In this document: piece after piece, positions 1 through 17,452 of the stretch
How positions within the stretch are numbered: the first letter of the stretch is position 1
How the letters are laid out: every line of letters starts with the position of its first letter
Assembly (NCBI RefSeq): GCF_014652275.1
Contig: NZ_BMYM01000002.1
Location: 744,001 to 808,000, forward strand
Direction: 5' to 3'
Length of the DNA: 64,000 nt
From: Parahalioglobus pacificus
GTDB taxonomy: Bacteria; Pseudomonadota; Gammaproteobacteria; Pseudomonadales; Halieaceae
Program-made: the position numbers and the translations under genes
Notes under the pieces: model-generated
Seen by the model: only the letters and a program-made list of their open reading frames with translations
Databases searched by the model: none
Told to the model about the DNA's origin: nothing

Positions 1-159
1 CGCTATCAACCGCGGGCCGGCGTGGGGACGCTGATAGCAATGATGTTGCCGTATTCCGTTGCGTTCCTGGTGCTGTGGTCGATTTTCTTTTTTGTCTGGA
101 CGTTTGTTGCTGGTCTGCCGGTGGGGCCGGCATCACCCACGTTCTACACAACGGGGTAG
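1..159 (+). CDS. AbgT family transporter, C-terminal end (partial)
   Basis: The first frame is open from base 1 to a TAG at 157-159 and gives the last 52 residues of a membrane protein. The segment contains GTLIAMMLPYSVAFL and ends with a hydrophobic helix followed by GLPVGPASP. This matches my memory of the C-terminus of AbgT family (p-aminobenzoyl-glutamate type) secondary transporters, which end with a GTLIA-MLPYS helix and a short GLPLGPGA tail. The gene starts upstream of the window. Substrate cannot be judged from this piece. The overlapping + frame at 59-346 is not a gene. Confidence 0.75.
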   Translation, partial: RYQPRAGVGTLIAMMLPYSVAFLVLWSIFFFVWTFVAGLPVGPASPTFYTTG

Positions 160-469
160 TTGCACTCACCGCAACCACCCCCGGACCAGGCGAAGCTGCA
201 GTAAGGCATCTGCTGAAACCCACGACCCAATGATCGGGGATCGATCGTCTACACTCCTTCCAAACACTGGGCGTGGGGAGTCGCCGAATGCACCCGACTA
301 CTTTGATAGCGGAGTTGCGCCAAAGTTGGCGCAGCGTCAGGCCTGACCGACGTCATTCCCCAGGTGATGGACAAGGCCAGCGGCGGCGGCCTGTTGGAGC
401 AGGTCGGCCGACTGACCAGATTGATGGGGGCAGCCAAGTCATTCCTGAGCTGACCGCCGCCCGGGTCAG
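160..469. other. Intergenic stretch with a possible gene fragment
   Basis: No convincing complete gene lies between the transporter end and yegP. In the + frame ending with TGA near 452, about 45 codons read as a plausible protein tail (LTDVIPQVMDKASGGGLLEQ, then LMGAAKSFLS), but the frame is closed by a TAG near 313 and has no start. It may be a decayed gene end. Low confidence. Confidence 0.25.
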
Positions 470-802
470 TCAGGTATTGTCAGCAACGGGCGCGTCGGGC
501 GCGTTTTTCTTCACTGACGCCACTCCATTTTCCATCGCGGACGCCGACGAATAGCTTTCTGACTTCCCGATGTTCTGGCCATTCGACGATGTGAGACTGA
601 AAAAGGGCTCACCGTTCTTAGCTACCTTGCGATCAAAGCGCGAGTCATCCTGACTGTTCTTTCTGACCGACTCAATGCCGTTAGCAGCAGACGCCTTGGT
701 TGCATACATCTGGCTGGTGAGGATGATTTGTCCGTTACCTGCCTTCAAATTGAACATGAACTTGCCGCTGGGAGATTTCTTGAGCTCAAATTTTCCCGCC
801 AT
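470..802 (-). CDS. yegP: YegP family protein with two DUF1508 repeats
   Basis: Small 110-residue protein made of two similar DUF1508 units. Each begins with a FxLKxSxxGKFxFxLKAxNGQ-type strand pattern and ends with a G(I/V)xSVxKN helix: residues about 1-50 (GKFELKKSPSGKFMFNLKAG) and about 52-100 (AKNGEPFFSLTSSNGQNIG). This is the architecture of E. coli YegP. The function of the family is not established. The ATG at 802 (MAGKF) is preferred because homologues start there; an ATG at 817 in the same frame would add five residues. An AGGCG lies about 9 nt upstream of 802. It is followed on the same strand by no close gene and sits alone downstream of proteorhodopsin. Confidence 0.85.
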   Translation of the reverse strand: MAGKFELKKSPSGKFMFNLKAGNGQIILTSQMYATKASAANGIESVRKNSQDDSRFDRKVAKNGEPFFSLTSSNGQNIGKSESYSSASAMENGVASVKKNAPDAPVADNT

Positions 803-938
803 CTTACTTCGCCTCATTGTTGAGAATTTACTGTGATTGCCGACTTAAGACGTCCGGCGTTTATTTAAAATAGCTCACATGCCGGATCGGGCAACCTTGA
901 CGAGGTTTTGTACAGGAAAGTATCGACTCATTTTCAGG

Positions 939-976
939 AAAAAGCCTGCGAAACTCCAGGTTGAAGCCCCGCAGGC
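939..976 (-). terminator. Rho-independent terminator of the proteorhodopsin gene
   Basis: On the minus strand, GCCTGCG (976-970) and CGCAGGC (950-944) form a perfect 7-bp stem around a 19-nt loop and are followed by TTTTT. It starts 12 nt after the proteorhodopsin stop codon. Position, stem and U-tract are all as expected for an intrinsic terminator. Confidence 0.8.
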
Positions 977-988
977 ACTAGCAAAAGG

Positions 989-1768
989 CTACTCCTTAGC
1001 TGCCGTCGCTTCGTTAGCGGCGTACCAGATGAACAGACCAAACGCGATCTTGTTCAGGACATCCGCGAGGTTATACACGATGTTGAGAGTTCCAACGTCT
1101 GTGCCTCCCGCGAGATAGCCCAGGAAGTAGCCGATGGGATAGATAGCCCAGCCCACGGTCACTGTCCACTTCATCAGCGTGTAGGCCTTTTGCACGGCAG
1201 GAGGAGCTTCAGTCGCTGCGACTTTGCTGGCTTCCCCAAAGAATATCTCGTACAGAATGTATGCCCACCCCAACATGCCAATCGCGAAGCCAACAGTAAC
1301 ATTCAGGTAACCGGCTTCACCCATGTATCCGGGAATCAACATGACCAAGGTACCGATCAGTAACCGCCAGAAAATGCCGCCTGAAACCTTGGTTATTGCA
1401 GCGAGTATTAAGTAAAACTCAATCATTAGCAGGGGAACTGTCAACAGCCAATCTATGTACCTGAAGTCTGTCGGAGTGTCGCCCGTTGCGACCCACACTT
1501 CTCGCATGTAGAAATAATGGAACGCGGCAATGAAAGTTACGAGCGCAGATACGGTAAGCGAAGTTGCCCACTTACCACCGATGCGCAGAGATTCCATCAG
1601 GAAGAATATCGTCGACGCGGCGAGCGCCATTGAAATCAACCAGAAGGAATAACCAACAAAATCACCTGACTGCAGCATAGTCGAGTCACCAGCGAATGCG
1701 CTTGTGCCCGCCACGAGTAAACCCGTGACTACTGCAGGGGTGACGATAAAGCGTTTTTTATTAAACAT
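989..1768 (-). CDS. Proteorhodopsin, green-absorbing light-driven proton pump
   Basis: Seven-helix retinal protein, 259 residues, with an N-terminal signal-like segment ending at TSAFA (residues about 1-26). Key residues are present: counter-ion Asp106, Thr110, proton donor Glu117 and His84 (equivalents of D97, T101, E108 and H75 in the classic green proteorhodopsin), and Schiff-base Lys240 in NKIAFG. The tuning position (residue 105 of the classic protein) is Leu114, which in this family means green absorption. The DTE motif indicates an outward proton pump, not a chloride or sodium pump. Start choice: AAGGAG lies directly against an ATG at 1774, and the in-frame ATG at 1768 has proper 6-nt spacing, so 1768 is used. 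It is transcribed divergently from the crt-blh-idi operon that supplies its retinal. Confidence 0.97.
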   Translation of the reverse strand: MFNKKRFIVTPAVVTGLLVAGTSAFAGDSTMLQSGDFVGYSFWLISMALAASTIFFLMESLRIGGKWATSLTVSALVTFIAAFHYFYMREVWVATGDTPTDFRYIDWLLTVPLLMIEFYLILAAITKVSGGIFWRLLIGTLVMLIPGYMGEAGYLNVTVGFAIGMLGWAYILYEIFFGEASKVAATEAPPAVQKAYTLMKWTVTVGWAIYPIGYFLGYLAGGTDVGTLNIVYNLADVLNKIAFGLFIWYAANEATAAKE

Positions 1769-1946
1769 CGTCATCTCCTTGATGCGTGCTGAGAGAGATA
1801 CCGCTCACCGCCCCGATGGGGCCGGTTAATGCAGTTACGCACACTGTTAATGGTCTGGTTCATTCACTTTCAATATTTTGATCCCCTAGCGAAAACCGCG
1901 CGTAACCAACCACATAACTCAAACAACAAACGCCCGGGAGTTAACT
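1769..1946. promoter_or_regulatory. Divergent control region between proteorhodopsin and crt operon
   Basis: This 178-bp stretch must carry promoters for both directions. Visible elements: the AAGGAG ribosome-binding site of proteorhodopsin beside its start, GGGAG 6 nt before crtE, a small GCCCC-GAT-GGGGC hairpin at 1810-1822 in the proteorhodopsin leader, and a direct repeat GTTAATG at 1825-1831 and 1846-1852, exactly 21 bp apart. On the minus strand a TTGAAA lies upstream of the repeats but no good -10 hexamer follows at the right distance. No regulator gene is adjacent. Confidence 0.4.
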
Positions 1947-2981
1947 ATGGTTGCTGTGGCCGCGCGTATAAATAGCATTACGACCCTCACACCAAGAGGT
2001 GACACGGCTCTTGAGAACTGCAAAGAGCGTATCGCTGACCGGTTGCTTGGAATCGCACTGCAATTCGAAAACCCTCTGCGCGATGCATGCACTCATCATC
2101 TAGGCACTAATGGAAAGATGCTGCGCGGCCAGCTGGCCGTGAGAGCAGCGCTAGCCGACGGCGCAGACACTAACCAAGCGATTGAATGGGGCGTGGCCGT
2201 AGAGCTCTTGCACAACGCAACGTTGGTTCATGACGACATTTGCGACATGGATGAAACACGTCGCGGACGAGCATCCGTCTCGCACCTGTTTGGTTCCCAG
2301 GTGGCACTCTGCCTTGGAGACGCACTCATCAGCGAAAGCTATGCCGCGGCGCGGAGGTATACGCGCCGCAGGGAGACACTCGATGCCCTGAGCATGACCA
2401 TCAAGGAGCTTGCACAGGGTCAGGCCAGCGAATTTGCCTGTAACCACTATCCATCAGTTGAGCGTTGCTTTGCGATTGCCATCAGAAAAACGGGACCACT
2501 GTTCAGTCTTCCGGTCTGCGGCGCTCTGCGCACCTACGACAGCTCTTCAGTGGCTGGAAGCACAAAAAAATACCTCAACGCGTGTGCCATAGCCTTCCAG
2601 GCGATAAACGACCTTGCCAATTTTGATCGGCGCGTCAGCAGTGCGAATCCGAGCTCAGATTTTTCAAGGATGCGCCCCAACATTGCTATCTCGCTGTTTG
2701 CGGACTCACTCGACACCGCAACACGCAGAGACTTTGACGCGCTGTATCGTTCGCTCGCCCAACCAAGACATGAAGCAACATGTTCCCAGAAGCTCATGGA
2801 ACAGTTCTGGATCACGTTTTCAGGATCCGTCGCCCTGAGATCTGCTCTTTCACTTACCAAGCTTGAAGTCGAAACAGCCGATCGACTCTTCGAGCAATTG
2901 GAAAAGAAGACTGCAGAGGTCGTGTCACCGCTGCACGCCTGGTTGCTCGCCACATCCGAGAAGACTTGCTCTCTTCACTAG
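1947..2981 (+). CDS. crtE: Polyprenyl (geranylgeranyl) diphosphate synthase
   Basis: Isoprenyl diphosphate synthase of 344 residues, first gene of the beta-carotene/retinal operon. It should condense IPP with allylic diphosphates to geranylgeranyl diphosphate, the substrate of CrtB. The first aspartate-rich motif is intact (DDICD, residues 96-100, preceded by LLHNATLVH and followed by ETRRG), and GKMLRGQL near residue 57 matches the GKxxR IPP-binding region. The second motif, normally DDxxD after FQ, reads NDLAN (221-225), so two of three aspartates are asparagine. Activity may still be possible but this is odd. GGGAG precedes the ATG by 6 nt. The crtI start follows 12 bp after the stop. Confidence 0.9.
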   Translation: MVAVAARINSITTLTPRGDTALENCKERIADRLLGIALQFENPLRDACTHHLGTNGKMLRGQLAVRAALADGADTNQAIEWGVAVELLHNATLVHDDICDMDETRRGRASVSHLFGSQVALCLGDALISESYAAARRYTRRRETLDALSMTIKELAQGQASEFACNHYPSVERCFAIAIRKTGPLFSLPVCGALRTYDSSSVAGSTKKYLNACAIAFQAINDLANFDRRVSSANPSSDFSRMRPNIAISLFADSLDTATRRDFDALYRSLAQPRHEATCSQKLMEQFWITFSGSVALRSALSLTKLEVETADRLFEQLEKKTAEVVSPLHAWLLATSEKTCSLH

Positions 2982-2993
2982 GCGGGTGATTGT

Positions 2994-4532
2994 ATGGAAG
3001 CGAAACAATTTCCAGGGCCTACTCAACATGCCGTTGTCGTAGGCGCAGGGTTCGGAGGTATCGCAGCTGCACTCAGGCTGCGCGCTCGCGGGTATACGGT
3101 AGAAATCATAGACCGCTGCCAACGTCTCGGTGGACGTGCTCAGGTCCACGTTCGTGACGGATTTCGTCACGACGCTGGTCCTACGGTGATCACTGCACCG
3201 TTCTTGTTCGAAGAATTATTCGCTCTATTTGGGAGGAATATAGCCGACTACGTAACACTGAAGCCGCTAGATACTTGGTATCGATTTCAATTCGCAGATG
3301 GTACCCACTTTAACTACGGCGGCTCCATCGAAGATACGCTGGCTGAAATTCGACGCATTGCCCCCGAAGATGAACAGGGGTATCTGGAGCTTGTTGAGGC
3401 CAGTCGCCGTATCTACGAACTCGGATTCGAAAAACTCGCCCACGTTCCGTTTCATAACCCGCGCAAGCTGATCGCACTTATTCCATCCATGGCCAGACTG
3501 GGGCTCTACAGGAGTGTCTGGCAACTCGTTCGCCGATATCTGAAGTCTGAAAAATTACGCAGGGCATTTTCGATTCAGCCGCTGCTTGTGGGCGGCAATC
3601 CTTTCCAAACAACGAGTATTTATAACCTCATACACTATCTTGAGCGAGCCCATGGCATTCACTTCGCAATGGGAGGAACCGGTGCATTAGTTGACGCACT
3701 TGCAAGATTGATGTCCGAACAGGGGATTAACACTCGGCTGAACACAACCGTTGACAGAATATGTGTTGAGGACAAGCGGGTGCGCGGTGTCTTTCTTGAC
3801 ACGGGAGAGCGGATTGATGCGGACATAGTCGTGTCGAACACAGACCCCGCTTTCTTGTACTCGTCGATGCTGAACGACAGACAATCCAAGGCAACGGCAA
3901 AATTGAAAACGCGGTTCGCGCGAAAGAGCATGGGCCTCTTCGTGCTCTTCTTTGGTACAACGCGCGCGTATGAAGATGTCGAACATCACACTATATGGTT
4001 GGGGAAAAGATACAAAGATCTACTGAATGACATCTTTAATCGCAAAGTTCTCTCTGAGGACTTCTCGATGTATCTCCACCGGCCGACAGCCACAGATCCG
4101 ACGTTCGCTCCTGATGGATGCGACAGTTTTTACGCACTGGTGCCCGTTCCTAACCTTTCGGCCGAGATTGACTGGAGTGTTGAAGGCCATCGCCTGCGTG
4201 AGCGAATGGTGGAAGCTTTGGACGAGACTATACTTCCCGGCTTACGGGACTGCATCACCAGTGACTTCTGTATGACGCCCGAGGACTTTCAATCGGATTA
4301 TCTAAGCCCCGACGGCGCGGGGTTCTCAATTGCGCCCACTTTCTATCAGTCTGCCTGGTTTCGCTACCACAACGTTGGGGAGGGTCCAAAGGGCCTTTAC
4401 CTCGTCGGCGCTGGGACACATCCAGGCGCGGGATTACCTGGTGTTCTAAGCTCTGCTAAAGTCCTCGACCAAGTTGTGCCAGCCGCTGACATTCAGGTCG
4501 CCGACTGTCGCACTTACGAGGTTTCTCCGTGA
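2994..4532 (+). CDS. crtI: Phytoene desaturase (CrtI-type)
   Basis: FAD-dependent desaturase of 512 residues that converts phytoene to lycopene by successive desaturations at the membrane. The N-terminal dinucleotide-binding fold is clear (VVGAGFGGIAAALRLRARG, residues 15-33) followed by LGGRAQ, and the C-terminal FAD-contact motif is present (GLYLVGAGTHPGAGLPGVL, near residues 463-481). Length is typical of bacterial CrtI. The stop codon overlaps the GTG start of crtB by 4 bp (GTGA), which indicates translational coupling. Confidence 0.95.
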   Translation: MEAKQFPGPTQHAVVVGAGFGGIAAALRLRARGYTVEIIDRCQRLGGRAQVHVRDGFRHDAGPTVITAPFLFEELFALFGRNIADYVTLKPLDTWYRFQFADGTHFNYGGSIEDTLAEIRRIAPEDEQGYLELVEASRRIYELGFEKLAHVPFHNPRKLIALIPSMARLGLYRSVWQLVRRYLKSEKLRRAFSIQPLLVGGNPFQTTSIYNLIHYLERAHGIHFAMGGTGALVDALARLMSEQGINTRLNTTVDRICVEDKRVRGVFLDTGERIDADIVVSNTDPAFLYSSMLNDRQSKATAKLKTRFARKSMGLFVLFFGTTRAYEDVEHHTIWLGKRYKDLLNDIFNRKVLSEDFSMYLHRPTATDPTFAPDGCDSFYALVPVPNLSAEIDWSVEGHRLRERMVEALDETILPGLRDCITSDFCMTPEDFQSDYLSPDGAGFSIAPTFYQSAWFRYHNVGEGPKGLYLVGAGTHPGAGLPGVLSSAKVLDQVVPAADIQVADCRTYEVSP

Positions 4533-5482
4533 TCAAACATCCAACATCCTCGGGTGACGCTCACAAGGTGCTTGCAAAGCACGGTAAGACATTTGCGTTG
4601 GCCAGCAAGTTCATGGGTAAGGAAACCTCATACAAAGCAGCAAGGCTTTATGCGTTCTGCAGATACTTGGACGATCTCGTAGACGAACGAGCCACTATTC
4701 AATCTGCCCGTAACGCACTCCGAGAAACGCGCAAACACTTGCTATCCGGTACTGGCTGCGATCCGGTCGTTGCTGATTTCCTGTCACTGGCCCGGGACAC
4801 GTCAATGGACCCCGCACTTGCCGCAATACTCATTGATGGCCTCGAAAGCGACCTTACGACAGTGGCTATCGATACACAGGAGGAGCTGGTTCAGTACGCT
4901 TACCGAGTTGCGGGTGTGGTCGGATTAATGATGTGTGCCGTCATGAATGTGAAAGATAGTCGAGCGCTACCCTTTGCGATTGATCTGGGAATCGCGATGC
5001 AGCTCACCAACATCGCCCGCGATATCCGGGAAGACGCGGCGATGGGTCGCAGGTACATACCCGGCAGTTGGATAGACAGACTGCGGGCTCGCGACCTAGT
5101 GGCGCCAAGCGCGTGCACGCAAGCGGCTGTTAGTTCCGGACTTAAGAAACTGCTGAATCTCGCCGATGACTACTATATGAGTGCGGCCCTTGGCTTGCAC
5201 TACATCCCTTTGCGTTCACAATTTGCGGTTCGTGTGGCTCGATCGGTTTATCGGGAGATTGGGCAGCTGATCCGTGAGCGGGACTATAACGTCAATGAAT
5301 CTCGGATCATTGTTGGGAACGCAAGAAAAGTACGAGTATCGCTTCGGGCACTCTTCTCCGAGCCGCGAGAGAGCACCTCGGACATTGCGGAGAAAAACTG
5401 CATTTCAAAGCTCCATACGCCATTACTTGGGCTTCCCGGCGTCCGAGTGTCATACGAAGGCAAGCCTGGGTGTCTCGCGTAG
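4529..5482 (+). CDS. crtB: Phytoene synthase
   Basis: Squalene/phytoene synthase family, 317 residues, joins two geranylgeranyl diphosphates head-to-head to phytoene. Both diphosphate/Mg-binding motifs are present: DDLVD (residues 48-52, within YAFCRYLDDLVDE) and NIARDIRED (161-169). The GTG start lies inside the end of crtI. The last 13 bp overlap the start of crtY, so the operon is tightly coupled. Confidence 0.95.
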   Translation: MIKHPTSSGDAHKVLAKHGKTFALASKFMGKETSYKAARLYAFCRYLDDLVDERATIQSARNALRETRKHLLSGTGCDPVVADFLSLARDTSMDPALAAILIDGLESDLTTVAIDTQEELVQYAYRVAGVVGLMMCAVMNVKDSRALPFAIDLGIAMQLTNIARDIREDAAMGRRYIPGSWIDRLRARDLVAPSACTQAAVSSGLKKLLNLADDYYMSAALGLHYIPLRSQFAVRVARSVYREIGQLIRERDYNVNESRIIVGNARKVRVSLRALFSEPRESTSDIAEKNCISKLHTPLLGLPGVRVSYEGKPGCLA

Positions 5483-6639
5483 ACGTATATGACGTTGTGA
5501 TAATCGGAGGTGGTTGCGCCGGATTGTCACTTGCTCGCGAGCTGTGCCGTATACCAACATCACCAAAAACGTTGGTTCTCGAGTCTCGCGGAAACTATGT
5601 CAACGACAAAACCTGGTGCTTCTGGGCCAGTAATAATCACCATCTTTATCACCTCGTTTCGAAGGAGTGGGCTAAGTGGGAAATTTCAACTGTGTCGGGC
5701 GATGCAATAACTCACTCGGCCAGCGGACGTTCCTACCAGATGATAAGAAGCATCGACTTTTACAATGATGCTCTGGATATCATCGATAGGGAACCTAACG
5801 TCAATGTAAGAACTCAGGCGCCGGTATTCGGTATTCGTCGAGACGCCGACGGGCTGGAAATTAGTCTTCCAGATGGTGCGGTTTATGCACGCCGCGTCGT
5901 TGATACACGACCGCCAACGCAGAAGAAATTGCAATCTGCAACGCTCCTACAGTGCTTTATGGGACACGAAGTTGAGACTGAACGGCCTGTGTTTGACCCT
6001 CACAAGGCCGGCCTGATGACGGACATGCGCGATGACGGCTTGGGCTTCAGATTTGTATACGTGTTACCGCTTAGCTCTCAAAGGGCACTTGTAGAGACAA
6101 CAAGATTCTGCACAACACTTTGCCCCAAAGCCCAGTTGGCAAAAGACCTAGAAGAAGACACTCGTAACTTGCTCGGTGGACAGGACGGACGTGTCATTTA
6201 TGCAGAGTGTGGCGCCCTACCCATGGGCATGCCTGCTACGGAGGGGGCCGATAAAGAAGTTTATCGGGCCGGTATATCCGGTGGCGCACTGAGAGCAGCC
6301 ACCGGATACGGATTCCAGAATATCCAGCAATGGGCTGAACGCTTCGCCTACTCTCTCTCTGGTTACGGCAGCGAAACCCACGCTAGCGCAAGCAAGTTCC
6401 AATCGTTTATGGACGAGATTTTTCTCAGAACCTTGAAACGCCATCCCGATCGGTCCGCTGAGTTTTTTCACTCGATTGCGGCCACGCTGGAAGGTGGGGA
6501 GTTCTCAGATTTTATGTCGGGGTATTCTCGATTGGGAGTTTGGCGGCGGATAGTCCAGTCATTGCCGCCACGCCCATTCCTAAACACATTGCTCCATCGT
6601 CAGGACAACATAGCTTCGCAGAGGGTTGTCGTTAGATGA
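5470..6639 (+). CDS. crtY: Lycopene beta-cyclase (CrtY-type)
   Basis: Flavin-dependent lycopene cyclase, 389 residues, turning lycopene into beta-carotene. The N-terminal VVIIGGGCAGLSLARELC (about residues 8-25) is the FAD/NAD-binding motif of the family, and NDKTWCFW near residue 46 matches the conserved DxxTWxFW-like block. It begins with GTG inside crtB; GAAGG lies about 9 nt upstream. The TGA overlaps the ATG of blh by 4 bp (ATGA). Context (CrtB before, Blh after) supports beta-carotene as product. Confidence 0.92.
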   Translation: MSRVDVYDVVIIGGGCAGLSLARELCRIPTSPKTLVLESRGNYVNDKTWCFWASNNHHLYHLVSKEWAKWEISTVSGDAITHSASGRSYQMIRSIDFYNDALDIIDREPNVNVRTQAPVFGIRRDADGLEISLPDGAVYARRVVDTRPPTQKKLQSATLLQCFMGHEVETERPVFDPHKAGLMTDMRDDGLGFRFVYVLPLSSQRALVETTRFCTTLCPKAQLAKDLEEDTRNLLGGQDGRVIYAECGALPMGMPATEGADKEVYRAGISGGALRAATGYGFQNIQQWAERFAYSLSGYGSETHASASKFQSFMDEIFLRTLKRHPDRSAEFFHSIAATLEGGEFSDFMSGYSRLGVWRRIVQSLPPRPFLNTLLHRQDNIASQRVVVR

Positions 6640-7502
6640 TCCTCCGAGGCGACAACGCCGCTTTTCTCGTGGCCTGCCTAGTTGCCCTGTTTCTAGCCTA
6701 CATGGAACTAGCACCCGATGGGCGCACGGCGGTTACCTTTCTCGCGGTTGCTGTGGTTACCATGGGTCTGCCACATGGTGCTATTGATGCCTGGTATGCC
6801 GAACGTCGCGGCTTTACCGGCGACGGCTGGCAGGGCTCTGTAGTTTTCTATCTGTGGTACACCGGATTGGCTGTGTTAACTGCAGTCGTGTGGTTTTTGT
6901 TTCCCGTTTTCAGCCTTTGTGTTTTCTTGTTGATTTCCGCTTGGCATTTTAGCGGTGATTGGAGAGATCACCTTGTTTCTTTAGAGAGACTGGCTGCGGG
7001 AATTACGCTTGTTTCTCTGCCTGCACTATTTCACCCCGAGAGCGTGCAGGTGCTTTACAGCGCACTAACTGGTGAGCCGTCTTCGACCATCGTGGTCGCG
7101 CAGAGTTTCTCGGCGGTAGTGTTTGGTGTATTTCTCTTCTTGAGTATCTTGTACCGTGCTCCTAGACAACCGCAATTTCTGTTCGAGAGCTCTATACTCT
7201 TGGTCTGTGCATGGGCGCTACCGCCGATCACATTCTTCCTCGTTTACTTCTGCGGATTACACAGTGTTCGACACCTGCTGAGAATACTTAAGGGTGCTGG
7301 ATACAGAGTTGGGTTATCGGCATTTCTGCACACACTGCTTGCCGTGCTGATCGCGATGACCGCCTGGATTATTTTCCCTGCCCATATCGAAATCGAGCAG
7401 CTTCTTCTAGGCACAGTATTTATCGGGCTAGCGTCGTTGACGGTTCCGCACATGCTCCTACACGATGTGCTCGCACATCTACATAAAGCAGAAAATTCGT
7501 GA
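6636..7502 (+). CDS. blh: Beta-carotene 15,15'-dioxygenase, Brp/Blh family
   Basis: Polytopic membrane protein of 288 residues that cleaves beta-carotene into two retinals, the chromophore of the proteorhodopsin. Conserved iron-ligand type histidines lie in hydrophobic helices: His47 (MGLPHGAID), His104 (WHFSGDW), His209 and His213 (LHSVRHLL), and His272/His276 (PHMLLHD). About seven to eight hydrophobic segments can be seen. It is coupled to crtY upstream (ATGA overlap) and to idi downstream (GTGA overlap). Confidence 0.95.
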   Translation: MILRGDNAAFLVACLVALFLAYMELAPDGRTAVTFLAVAVVTMGLPHGAIDAWYAERRGFTGDGWQGSVVFYLWYTGLAVLTAVVWFLFPVFSLCVFLLISAWHFSGDWRDHLVSLERLAAGITLVSLPALFHPESVQVLYSALTGEPSSTIVVAQSFSAVVFGVFLFLSILYRAPRQPQFLFESSILLVCAWALPPITFFLVYFCGLHSVRHLLRILKGAGYRVGLSAFLHTLLAVLIAMTAWIIFPAHIEIEQLLLGTVFIGLASLTVPHMLLHDVLAHLHKAENS

Positions 7503-8068
7503 CCACTGTAAAGGCGATCGTTCGTTATCCCAAAGTCGAATCGGTTATCCTCGTTGACGAACAGGATCGTCCACTGGGAGCTGCTGAGAAACAGTTTGCT
7601 CACATAAAATCGAAGTTGCATCGGGCTTTCTCAATTTTTATTTTTAATGAGCGAGGGGAGTTACTGCTGCAACGCAGAGCAACCTCGAAGTATCACTCCG
7701 GGGATCTGTGGGCAAACACCTGCTGTGGCCATCCGCGACCGGGAGAGCGGACCAAAAAAGCAGCACAACGTCGATTAATGGAGGAGTTTGGTTTCAGCAG
7801 TGTCCTCACTCGATTGGGACATATACGCTACCGAGCGGAAGTCACTCGCGGGCTTACCGAAAATGAGTATGTCCACATATTCGTTGGAACGCACCGCGGA
7901 GACATCTCTCCGGATCCGGCCGAGATCCGTGAGTATCGATTTTCGTCCTGGGAGTCAGTGATCAACGATGTAAATCATCGCCCAAGTGATTACGCGCCCT
8001 GGTTCAGGGTTTACCTCACGAAGAATATCTCAACACTTAATACAGCCCTTTCATCATTTCTCCAGTAA
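7499..8068 (+). CDS. idi: Isopentenyl-diphosphate delta-isomerase, type I
   Basis: Nudix-fold isomerase of 189 residues interconverting IPP and DMAPP, thus balancing the precursors for CrtE. The catalytic cysteine is in NTCCGHP (Cys76), the second catalytic acid region is RRLMEEFGF (Glu95/Glu96), and LLLQRRATSKYHS matches the substrate-binding block. The GTG start overlaps the blh stop by 4 bp. It is the last gene of the crtEIBY-blh-idi operon; no clear intrinsic terminator is visible after it. Confidence 0.95.
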   Translation: MTTVKAIVRYPKVESVILVDEQDRPLGAAEKQFAHIKSKLHRAFSIFIFNERGELLLQRRATSKYHSGDLWANTCCGHPRPGERTKKAAQRRLMEEFGFSSVLTRLGHIRYRAEVTRGLTENEYVHIFVGTHRGDISPDPAEIREYRFSSWESVINDVNHRPSDYAPWFRVYLTKNISTLNTALSSFLQ

Positions 8069-8447
8069 TTGGAAGATTCGCCAGGCGACACCATACGGTA
8101 TCTCTTAACTTCTTCAGAGCTGTGACTACATCACGCCTTGGAGATTTATCCCGAAATGAAGCAATGATTACCACGTGTAGTTCTAGAGTGCTGGCGGAGA
8201 GGAGAACAGAGTGCTTAAGGTTCTTATAAGGGTATCGATTGGGTAGTAGGAAAGACCTGACACCGGCTAAAGCTAATGGTCAGAAAACTCGTCGATTCTG
8301 AAGAGTGGATTTAACAGCAGTCCCTGTTTGGTCCTCGGCTCAGAAAAGTTAGGGTATGCTTACTTGGAACTGTCCCACTTGGAGGTGGTTATTCATGCGT
8401 TTCCAGTCTCATCCAAGTATCGGATGGGTATCCTGATACGGGGGGGT
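8069..8447. other. Intergenic stretch, nothing recognised
   Basis: About 380 bp after idi. The frame of the next gene is open back to 8328, but those codons do not look like protein (no signal peptide until 8448). No RNA, terminator or repeat was recognised. Confidence 0.4.
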
Positions 8448-9317
8448 ATGTCAGTGAGGTACTTTGCCGTGTTCCTATTGACATCCCTTTTTCTTCACGA
8501 AGCAATAGCACACGACCTTGGCGAGGCCGGTAACGAAGTCTGCGAGATAAGCTATCCCGTCCCTCCAACGTTTCGTTCAAGAGATCTTTATGAAAGGATT
8601 CCAGAGTCGGAAAGGCCGGACTATGAAGCTTTCGAGGCCAACCTTAGAAAACTTCCAGCGGGAAAGGTCTGGCAAAGCCCTCTTCAGGAGCAGCTTTATT
8701 ACAAGCTGAAGAAGGCTGACGCCGTTGCTCTAGTGGAAATGCCTGAATTTGAAAGCCAAGTATGGCAGAAGTCCACGCTGACAGATGTACTTCATCTCAA
8801 AGCTGTTCGGATCCCTATCGCCATTAGGGAGTGGATAAAGCCGCCGGTCGTCGAGCTGGGGAGTATGTTCGAACCGCATAGCATTGAGGTAGTCATGTCG
8901 TCTGGAAACTTGTTTTCTTCTGTATACCAATCTTCTGTGCATGATCTTCGTAACAGGGCGGACGATTCCATAAGAGAGTTTCGACGTCAGAGGAGTTCGG
9001 TTGAGAAAGCAAGCTCCGAAGGGCGAATATCGATTGCCGAGAGAGAAGAAGAACTGGCCAAGATCGAAGCATCTAGACAAGGCTCTTTTTTTGGAGAAGT
9101 AAGTTCACTTACTGGCTTGTTAGAACTAGGCGGGAGCTCGTCATCTCATCTTTGTGGTGTGGATTCGCTGAGGCCAAGGATGTCTTACGTGTTTTTTTTG
9201 CGATCTGACTCGGCCGGTGAGTATTCGTTCGCCGGTGCACAGTCGATCATGTCACCTGAAATGTCCAACTCGCTGCTTGAGGTTGTACCTCTATTAACAT
9301 CAAGTGAAGGGAACTAG
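8448..9317 (+). CDS. Secreted protein of unknown function
   Basis: Predicted 289-residue exported protein. The N-terminus (MSVRYFAVFLLTSLFLHEAIA) is a clean Sec signal peptide and decides the start at 8448, which is preceded by a run of seven G. The mature part is hydrophilic; residues about 165-210 are rich in Arg/Glu and may form a short coiled coil (REFRRQRSSVEKASSEGRIS). A few cysteines are present. I recognise no domain. It lies 12 bp before another secreted-protein gene that is broken, so both may once have been an operon for a cell-surface function. Confidence 0.7.
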   Translation: MSVRYFAVFLLTSLFLHEAIAHDLGEAGNEVCEISYPVPPTFRSRDLYERIPESERPDYEAFEANLRKLPAGKVWQSPLQEQLYYKLKKADAVALVEMPEFESQVWQKSTLTDVLHLKAVRIPIAIREWIKPPVVELGSMFEPHSIEVVMSSGNLFSSVYQSSVHDLRNRADDSIREFRRQRSSVEKASSEGRISIAEREEELAKIEASRQGSFFGEVSSLTGLLELGGSSSSHLCGVDSLRPRMSYVFFLRSDSAGEYSFAGAQSIMSPEMSNSLLEVVPLLTSSEGN

Positions 9318-9329
9318 GGGGGGCTGCGA

Positions 9330-9734
9330 ATGATTCCCAGCATAACCGCTAAAGTTATCTCGACGCGCTCTGTTCTCACACTTTTCGTTCTTTTTGCGTC
9401 TGGGATTGGCGGTAATGCCCACGCTCAGACTGAGCTGCTTTTAGACTCCAATTGCACGGTCTCAATACTCAATCGAACTGTCAGAGCTGGTGATGGCGGA
9501 AGTTTCGCAATGCCAAATATTCCTGACAACATGGGACGAGTCAGAGCACGGGCAACATGTCAAAGAGACGGCGCAACCGTTTCTGGAGAAATAGTTCCCA
9601 TGACGGCCTCCTCAGATTACGCCTTTCATCAGGTCAGCAGTGGAGCAGGCCTTGGCCATGTCCGTTTCGATCTGTTCCCAGATGTAGAGGATTTTCCTGC
9701 CCCCGAAAGGGCGGATGTAGTGGACGCCCTCTAG
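9330..9734 (+). pseudogene. Truncated secreted protein fused to antisense of an excisionase gene
   Basis: The frame encodes a signal peptide (about residues 1-33, ending NAHAQ) followed by TELLLDSNCTVSILNRTVRA, a sequence I associate with the N-terminus of very large secreted Ig-like/repeat proteins. After about codon 92 the reading frame runs antisense through the gene at 9612-9827 for 41 codons, so its tail (from SSDYAFHQVSSG onward) is not native sequence. I read this as the 5' remnant of a larger gene cut by an insertion or deletion. A G-rich ribosome site precedes the ATG, so a short chimeric product could still be made. Confidence 0.6.
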
Positions 9735-9827
9735 AAGGACGGAACCCTTGAGGCTATTTCGGATGTAGCGTGGGTCGAATTTGATGCGCTCAGAAAGCTC
9801 ATCGGTGGTCAGGTAAGTATTGCTCAT
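9612..9827 (-). CDS. Small excisionase-like / HTH protein of an integrative element
   Basis: A 71-residue protein with TTDELSERIKFDPRYIRNSL followed by VLLEGVHYIRPFGGRKILYI. This resembles small DNA-binding proteins (AlpA/excisionase type, winged HTH) found next to tyrosine integrases in genomic islands. AAGGAG sits 7 nt before the ATG, supporting a real gene. Here no integrase gene is left: only about 420 bp separate it from the tRNA-Arg gene that would be the integration site. Its 3' half overlaps the end of the broken secreted-protein frame on the other strand. Confidence 0.75.
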   Translation of the reverse strand: MSNTYLTTDELSERIKFDPRYIRNSLKGSVLLEGVHYIRPFGGRKILYIWEQIETDMAKACSTADLMKGVI

Positions 9828-10248
9828 CGTTCACTCCTTGAGGTCTATTTCGATGACTGCAAGGTGAACGTATCGTGGATTCGGGGACTGCGCTGAGCGG
9901 AGGGAAACTAACTCACTTGGTCGTTAAATGGCTTCTGTTCCGCCATGTCGCAACCCACTCAATCATGCGAAAAATATGGGCCGACGGCACAGATTTTTCG
10001 CCGCGCTCTGTCAACTATTTGGTGCCACATTTTTCGACAGCGCGTGCCGCGCAGGGAATTTAGAGGCTGACTTTTGGGGCTCAATCTTGATCACAGCGAG
10101 ACCGGTTACGCTTTGGACCAGTTACAGCTAAAAGTCACGTTTGTCGGGGAGCAATTTCTTAGATGCCAAACTTGGTCCAGATTTGGTCCAAATATGGTCC
10201 AACTGACATTTATGTTAGTGCAAGCTTACTGGGATGGTCGCTAGAGGA
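9828..10248. other. Remnant of integrative element, no gene
   Basis: I read the minus strand for integrase remnants and found only short frames. The stretch contains one TGGACCA (10114-10120) and three phased TGGTCCA copies (10173-10201) close to the tRNA, typical of the sequence found at the tRNA-proximal edge of integrase genes in such islands. It probably represents the left edge of a decayed element. Confidence 0.4.
10173..10201. repeat. Three TGGTCCA repeats spaced by 11 bp
   Basis: TGGTCCA occurs at 10173-10179, 10184-10190 and 10195-10201, each 11 bp from the next, so on the same face of the helix. An inverted copy TGGACCA lies at 10114-10120. They lie 48-135 bp beyond the tRNA 3' end. 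They could be arm-type integrase or excisionase sites, or just coding remnants of an integrase C-terminus. Confidence 0.6.
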
Positions 10249-16760: not shown

Positions 16761-17321
16761 CTAGGGCAGTACTTCAATGATGATCTCATTGCGTCGATTC
16801 CAAGGCAGCGTCATGGGCGGGTCGTACTGATTGACAGAAGGCGGACCTACCGTTTCGATTTCATTCTCGGCTAACACGGCCATCAGTTTTTCTGTCATTT
16901 CCGACACCTTGCCATCCGTTGCCCAACCGGAAAAGGGTATGGCAGCTACGCGTCTGCCCGGCACCTCCAATAGGGTCACATTAGCAAGGTCTGGCTCAGG
17001 CAGTGTGGCCATGTCGAACTCCGAGGGCAGTGTGAAAGCCATGTAGCCGTCCTCGGCCAGTTGAATCTCAACGGGTGCAGTCATTGCAATTTCCTGCTCT
17101 CTGTCGTTGCCCCCGAAGATGTAGTTTGCCAGGGCCCGGAAACCCTGCGTATCGCTGACATCATCGTTCATTGGGGTGCGTGCCTGTATGGTGGACTCAT
17201 ACTGACGAATCTCCACCTCGCCTAGCTGTTGAACCGCGGCATATTTGGGCTCTTCCAGGGACAGCACTGTGGCGCTGATTAAGAACAGAATGACAGCGGG
17301 GATGATGGCTTTGACAAACAT
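16761..17321 (-). CDS. SOUL family heme-binding protein, exported
   Basis: 186-residue protein of the SOUL/HBP family. It starts with a hydrophobic export or anchor segment (MFVKAIIPAVILFLISATVL) and carries the family pattern EEPKYAAVQQLGEVEIRQYE, FRALANYIFGGN and IAMTAPV. Bacterial SOUL proteins bind heme or tetrapyrroles in the periplasm; a precise role is not known. It appears monocistronic, with its end facing the PLP lyase gene. Confidence 0.9.
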   Translation of the reverse strand: MFVKAIIPAVILFLISATVLSLEEPKYAAVQQLGEVEIRQYESTIQARTPMNDDVSDTQGFRALANYIFGGNDREQEIAMTAPVEIQLAEDGYMAFTLPSEFDMATLPEPDLANVTLLEVPGRRVAAIPFSGWATDGKVSEMTEKLMAVLAENEIETVGPPSVNQYDPPMTLPWNRRNEIIIEVLP

Positions 17322-17452
17322 GAGAGGACCCTCTTTACGTTAGTATCAGTACGTAGCGGTCTCGCTTTTTGGTTCAGCCAGGTCCCATTCAATCAAAGAC
17401 ACCGATGCGGGCTTTGCCGCGTATCAAGTAAATTACCAAAGAGAAATTGACT

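Follow-up and report, generated by a model that had tools for sequence, protein, structure and literature searches.

We analyzed a stretch of 64,000 nucleotides from Parahalioglobus pacificus (Halieaceae; genome of 3.42 Mb in 8 contigs; contig positions 744001–808000, hereafter the window), which carries a full light-harvesting cassette: a proteorhodopsin (PR) gene on the – strand facing the retinal operon crtE-crtI-crtB-crtY-blh-idi on the + strand. The gap between PR and crtE is 172 bp long, and both of its strands show a predicted promoter of the ECF11 type (extracytoplasmic function sigma factors of the RpoE-ChrR type) reading outwards. On the basis of the nucleotide patterns, PR and the crt half probably each start from a promoter read by RpoE (ECF11), which would place both under joint control by light and oxidative stress; joint control is predicted because two back-to-back promoters fit the same ECF11-type consensus.

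For Vibrio cholerae, the sigma-E motif TGATC-N16-18-CGTAW has been published, based on genes that are under the control of ChrR and of blue light (PMC5241685). The predicted promoter towards crtE matches this consensus exactly, and that towards PR shows one mismatch, A for T in the –35 element (TGAAC); the two –35 elements are 16 bases apart, and both promoters fit a widened form of the motif, TGAWCY-N15-18-CGTA. In dinucleotide shuffles of the gap, a site appeared on a given strand in 0.1–0.2% of cases and on both strands in 0/20000. A first-pass annotation of this DNA had proposed that the divergent genes serve separate control of pump and chromophore synthesis. Two predicted promoters and two transcription units are present, with differing –10/–35 pairs, as that proposal would have it; however, the promoters stand back to back and both fit one sigma consensus, and we regard separate control as highly improbable.

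We compared the gene layout around PR in the best 80 of 239 PR relatives (named loci), the window and 18 regions from further genomes. Nine duplicates were dropped (L011, L019, L104, L105, L107, L108, L114, L115 and L117), leaving 90 rows, and L041 and L044, in which only crtE is opposite and crtI-B-Y-blh follow PR, were shifted by hand from the divergent to the same-strand class. Among these 90 non-redundant loci, 47 were same-strand, 27 were head-to-head and 16 had no crt genes beside PR. In a 90-row IQ-TREE phylogeny, all 27 head-to-head loci fell into one PR clade (34 rows, support 99/99) together with seven crt-less rows and 0 same-strand loci; two of the crt-less rows (L036 and L024) end at a contig edge upstream of PR, and the other five have no crt genes in the available sequence. 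The window PR groups with five crt-less Halieaceae PRs inside this clade (98/88). Since the head-to-head layout is spread through the PR clade, a peculiarity of the window genome was ruled out. The first-pass annotation had taken the divergent layout as unusual and had named its universality in close relatives as the refuting observation; this is largely what the comparison of synteny gave, wherever crt adjoins PR, because none of the 34 clade rows is same-strand. Some records titled Rhodoferax or Beta-/Burkholderiales (L010, L014, L021, L023 and L030) carry PRs that belong to the gammaproteobacterial head-to-head clade, which may reflect either bin naming or transfer.

We then counted the motif in 84 rows, six rows with <150 bp upstream being excluded (L024, L036, L042, L054, L071 and L113). 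In the head-to-head loci, the widened motif was found at 12/27 PR sides and 17/27 crt sides, with 0.12 expected per strand: 10 loci carried it on both sides, 2 on the PR side only, 7 on the crt side only and 8 on neither. The corresponding counts were 1/44 and 0/44 in same-strand loci (0.17 expected) and 1/13 and 0/13 in crt-less loci. Within the 27 head-to-head loci, 29 matches occurred in the 8,100 bp upstream of PR versus 6 in the 461,667 bp elsewhere, and 24 of the 29 had a 16-nt spacer, 15–18 having been allowed. These widened-form counts are partly circular because the pattern came from these same loci, whereas counts of the published form are not. In the same two sequence sets, the published consensus gave 4 versus 3 exact matches, and 26 (2.8 expected) versus 158 matches with one mismatch; the exact ones include the window crt side and L006, L065 and L111. 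In the window's clade, four of the crt-less Halieaceae PRs (L002, L004, L112 and L116) have a widened-form site with one mismatch 93–94 nt before PR. An order-wide search found PR at 1e-60 in 45 of 390 genomes, and 29 loci in addition to that of the window were inspected; 16 were new same-strand loci, with the motif at 1/16 PR sides and 0/16 other sides. This search bears on the same-strand side only, because its four PRs of 85–89% identity were already counted.

An alternative is that the two halves start from independent housekeeping or RpoS promoters, that the layout is inherited without regulatory meaning, and that the motif is incidental or a relic. The clade-wide divergent layout and the absence of the exact motif from 8/27 head-to-head loci agree with this, as does the case of Vibrio campbellii, where PR expression requires RpoS1 and is highest in stationary phase (PMC3380642). 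However, the scan of window positions 800–8500 gave no sigma-70-type site (0 versus 5.6 in shuffles), the best match in the gap reached 7–8 of 12, the motif is far denser upstream of PR than in the rest of the same loci, and its spacer length is kept. We consider independent promoters unlikely.

The host genome encodes the regulator that such promoters would require. A ChrR match (172 bits, cut-off 124.5) lies directly behind an ECF sigma gene (rpoE) on the contig that also holds the window, at a distance of ~0.56 Mb, and divergent from rpoE, on the other strand, are genes for a flavin adenine dinucleotide (FAD) oxidoreductase, a DUF1365 protein and a CFA-type methyltransferase (CfaA), a set known as the core of the RpoE-ChrR regulon. 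TGATCT-N16-CGTAT precedes rpoE, and TGATCC-N16-CGTAA precedes the divergent FAD gene. The pattern TGATCY-N16-CGTAW had 8 matches in the 3.4-Mb genome and 0 in a reversed control; as we read them, the 8 comprise rpoE, the FAD gene, crtE, three sites that precede further open frames and two that fall within frames. Of the three that precede further frames, the one at a DNA photolyase gene is ambiguous, lying inside the longest frame and only ~9 bases before a likelier ATG. The genes beside rpoE/chrR are under RpoE control in Rhodobacter sphaeroides (PMC4373377, a D. shibae paper). In 28 rpoE-chrR loci of relatives, 14 had the exact motif before rpoE, 8 had CGTT for CGTA, 2 were cut off and 4 had none, these four all being weak alphaproteobacterial ChrR matches.

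The search for ChrR also took in 50 loci from other collections, together with 5 further genomes. It was over the cut-off in 18/26 head-to-head genomes, 4/6 crt-less genomes and 2/23 same-strand genomes, a difference that is partly taxonomic. Motif and ChrR were associated in the 27 head-to-head loci (16 with both, 3 with the motif only, 3 with ChrR only and 5 with neither; Fisher test, P = 0.027 with kinship ignored). Four beta-like head-to-head loci (L014, L021, L023 and L030) have neither motif nor ChrR and are a natural negative case.

Singlet oxygen and related photo-oxidative signals inactivate ChrR in other bacteria. The pump gene and the retinal operon would accordingly fire outwards from the gap, each half from an RpoE promoter, with RpoE restrained by the zinc anti-sigma factor ChrR. 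Light would generate singlet oxygen or related signals, ChrR would be inactivated, and the RpoE so released would activate its own rpoE-chrR operon, the neighbouring FAD oxidoreductase-DUF1365-CfaA operon and, at the same time, the promoters of PR and crt. The cell would then make the pump, its chromophore and a quencher (carotene) when light is both damaging and useful, and PR would pump protons with green light. We infer this course of events, in which RpoE reads the gap promoters, light acts via ChrR and both halves rise together, from the promoter and gene patterns described above.

Several observations weigh against control by RpoE. The PR side of the window has a TGAACC –35 element and a 17-nt spacer, whereas all rpoE promoters counted here have TGATC, which could mean that the PR promoter is a weak one or that a different ECF sigma factor reads it; a large share of the matches in the clade are TGAAC forms. 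The published consensus is exact at only 4/54 head-to-head promoter sides, and it also occurs exactly on the PR side of 2/44 same-strand loci (L032 and L033, the latter Vibrio chagasii; 0.07 expected) and in the crt-less L110. Eight of the 27 head-to-head loci lack the exact widened motif, 3 of them despite having ChrR, and conversely 3 motif-bearing genomes have no ChrR over the cut-off. Moreover, the TGAWCY form was first spotted by eye in aligned upstream regions of these loci, and the search of the 390 genomes of the order gave no head-to-head locus beyond those counted. Finally, Vibrio PR has been tied to RpoS (PMC3380642 and PMC9040609), the regulator demonstrated there, so this clade may be controlled differently, or RpoS may contribute as well. 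In L033, the exact published consensus lies 96 nt before PR, and the genome has ChrR over the cut-off.

The –35 elements also raise the alternative of a different ECF sigma factor, one that recognizes a TGAAC-type –35, as the reader of these promoters, in which case joint control would hold with a signal other than singlet oxygen. Many PR- and crt-side sites are indeed TGAAC and the rpoE promoters TGATC. Nevertheless, the window crt side and three further loci match the published RpoE consensus exactly, the CGTA element and the 16-nt spacer are the same, and the motif tends to accompany ChrR. We rate another sigma factor as quite improbable, and RpoE remains our preferred reader of both promoters.

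We further analyzed the descent of the crt operons, using a CrtI tree (72 rows, FastTree) and a tree of concatenated CrtI-CrtB-CrtY-Blh (56 of 68 rows). In both, the head-to-head operons split three ways: group A, which sits with alphaproteobacterial operons; group B, which is Pseudohongiella-like; and the window, which pairs with L100 (support 100), a Halieaceae genome that has a Gln-type PR sharing the strand of crt and an operon likewise ending in idi. Approximately unbiased (AU) tests on 36 of the 68 rows (hand-picked, LG+G4, groups defined with the CrtI tree already known) gave worse trees when all head-to-head operons were forced into a single clade (P = 2.3e-05) or when the window was joined to group A (P = 6.7e-04) or to group B (P = 3.8e-05), and inheritance of the retinal operon along with the PR clade was thereby ruled out. 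Judged from these trees, three crt lineages that are not sisters face one PR clade. The single-gene best matches of the window were less uniform (CrtI 71% and CrtY 42% to L100; CrtB 45% and Blh 35% to group B rows; CrtE, which is not in the concatenation, 37% to L013 of group A), so its operon branches deeply and its closest relative is not certain for each gene. The history was either an exchange of the operon behind a PR promoter region that stayed in place, or repeated assembly of the head-to-head pair. What speaks for the view of the first-pass annotation that something is unusual here is the crt operon, which lies outside the lineages of the other head-to-head loci, and not the layout, which is clade-wide.

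A broader proposal can be made tentatively, with somewhat less than even confidence: this PR clade may be wired to the singlet-oxygen sigma factor, with ChrR in place of a photoreceptor sensing the light and a single ECF11 sigma driving pump and chromophore from the back-to-back promoters. On this reading, an arrangement shared by three crt operons of different ancestry would have been either re-created or retained while operons were exchanged, and this would speak for selection in favour of joint control.

The components of the cassette are listed in Table 1. As the first-pass annotation had stated, it is complete, all seven genes being open and each matching its named family in profile searches, and PR lies on the opposite strand to the rest; crtE, crtI, crtB, crtY and blh are all together. 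The genes of the + strand overlap by 4 bases at crtI/crtB, crtY/blh and blh/idi and by 13 bases at crtB/crtY, and therefore form one tight operon. An idi gene near the cassette was seen only in the window and L100 (at the operon end) and L033 (before PR), and these three also fall near one another in the crt tree.

By alignment, PR has His86, Asp108, Thr112, Leu116, Glu119 and Lys242, numbered from the ATG at 1774; the DTE triad (Asp/Thr/Glu), the retinal Lys and the His75 equivalent are all present at the aligned columns, and the tuning place (equivalent of position 105) is Leu. AGGAG abuts this first ATG and lies 6 nt ahead of a second ATG at 1768, which, given the Shine-Dalgarno spacing, is the likelier start; counted from there, the tuning Leu is residue 114, the position given in the first-pass annotation, and 116 from 1774. 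The closest relatives of PR in the PDB are green-absorbing proteorhodopsin (GPR), and the DTE/Leu residues suggest an ordinary green-type proton pump, again in accordance with that annotation. The tuning residue is Leu in 22 of the 27 head-to-head PRs and Gln in the other 5. The terminator that had been assigned to PR is plausible: a 15-pair hairpin is followed by a T-run. Its support is the long stem and the location rather than the count, because the scan of the region gave 6 sites versus 7.6 expected in shuffles. A 5΄ untranslated region hairpin behind the PR promoter was also considered and was dropped (mean z –0.68 in 32 clade rows versus –0.51 in 54 others), and Rfam had 0 matches in window positions 1–10000.

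The genome has a single rhodopsin match and a single blh match. In a family draw of 120 genomes, the window's included, a rhodopsin was present in 19 and blh was matched in 9, of which 8 exceeded the cut-off; 13 of the 19 rhodopsin-bearing genomes were not in the blh list and 6 were in both, some genomes being incomplete. IMCC14734 (Candidatus Litorirhabdus singularis) has been assigned to the Halieaceae (PMC10100682). Elsewhere in the window, a two-repeat DUF1508 protein is encoded at 470–817 (–), downstream of the PR terminator, and a third TGAWCY-N17-CGTA site at 17350–17376 (–) lies ~29 bases upstream of a gene for a SOUL heme-binding protein (16761–17321, –), which is possibly another member of the same regulon.

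Table 1. Features of the PR-crt cassette and of the rpoE-chrR locus (window positions unless prefixed by L135)
Feature	Position	Strand	Evidence
Terminator-like hairpin after PR	944..976	–	15-pair stem, 3-nt loop, then TTTTT
Proteorhodopsin (PR)	989..1774	–	Bac_rhodopsin 154.7 bits, cut-off 24.6
Predicted ECF11 promoter towards PR	1836..1862 (1835 with last A)	–	TGAACC-N17-CGTAA
Predicted ECF11 promoter towards crtE	1879..1905	+	TGATCC-N16-CGTAA; exact match to TGATC-N16-18-CGTAW
crtE, geranylgeranyl diphosphate synthase family	1947..2981	+	polyprenyl_synt 121.8 bits
crtI, phytoene desaturase	2994..4532	+	TIGR02734 550.3 bits
crtB, phytoene synthase	4529..5482	+	SQS_PSY 189 bits
crtY, lycopene cyclase	5470..6639	+	Lycopene_cycl 166.3 bits; under NCBIfam cut-offs
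blh, beta-carotene 15,15΄-dioxygenase (retinal formation)	6636..7502	+	TIGR03753 173.2 bits, cut-off 95
idi, type 1 isopentenyl-diphosphate isomerase	7499..8068	+	NF002995 182.3 bits, cut-off 127
chrR	L135 2657-3322	–	ChrR profile match
rpoE	L135 3328-3933	–	ECF sigma; operon with chrR

The window resembles the gammaproteobacterial cassettes of green PR with crtEIBY-blh in having all enzymes from isoprenoid precursors to retinal, a DTE pump with Leu, and GPR as nearest structures. It differs in that same-strand loci are the commonest in our sample (47/90), whereas the window is head-to-head (27/90) and its operon ends in idi. Light-induced carotenogenesis in Myxococcus xanthus uses the ECF sigma factor CarQ. 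In that species crt expression is triggered by light and by singlet oxygen (PMC12627116), but there is no rhodopsin and the regulators are others. Within the Halieaceae, retinal genes likewise adjoin the PR of Aequoribacter fuscus IMCC3088, which carries Leu105 (PMC10100682). The host also shares TGATC-N16-18-CGTAW, an autoregulated rpoE-chrR and neighbouring lipid genes with the RpoE-ChrR regulons of R. sphaeroides and V. cholerae, although PR and retinal genes are not named as members in the passages of those papers that were consulted (PMC5241685, PMC6852236 and PMC4373377). In the open-access literature, from which subscription journals are mostly absent, excerpts of PMC9040609, PMC4373377, PMC8582858, PMC12627116 and PMC9723704 contain no tie between proteorhodopsin and ChrR or an ECF sigma factor. 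In Vibrio campbellii and AND4, PR is raised by light (1.8x and 3.9x) and by stress (PMC3380642); Vibrio differs from the window in the same-strand layout of L033 and in having RpoS as the demonstrated regulator, and how light acts on RpoS1 is stated to be not known (PMC3380642).

The route from light to PR expression is unsettled outside a few strains; with a sigma factor and its anti-sigma factor now named, along with two sites of ~27 bp, the question is open to experiment. If the proposed control is true, PR would be recast as part of the photo-oxidative stress response, and not as an energy gene alone.

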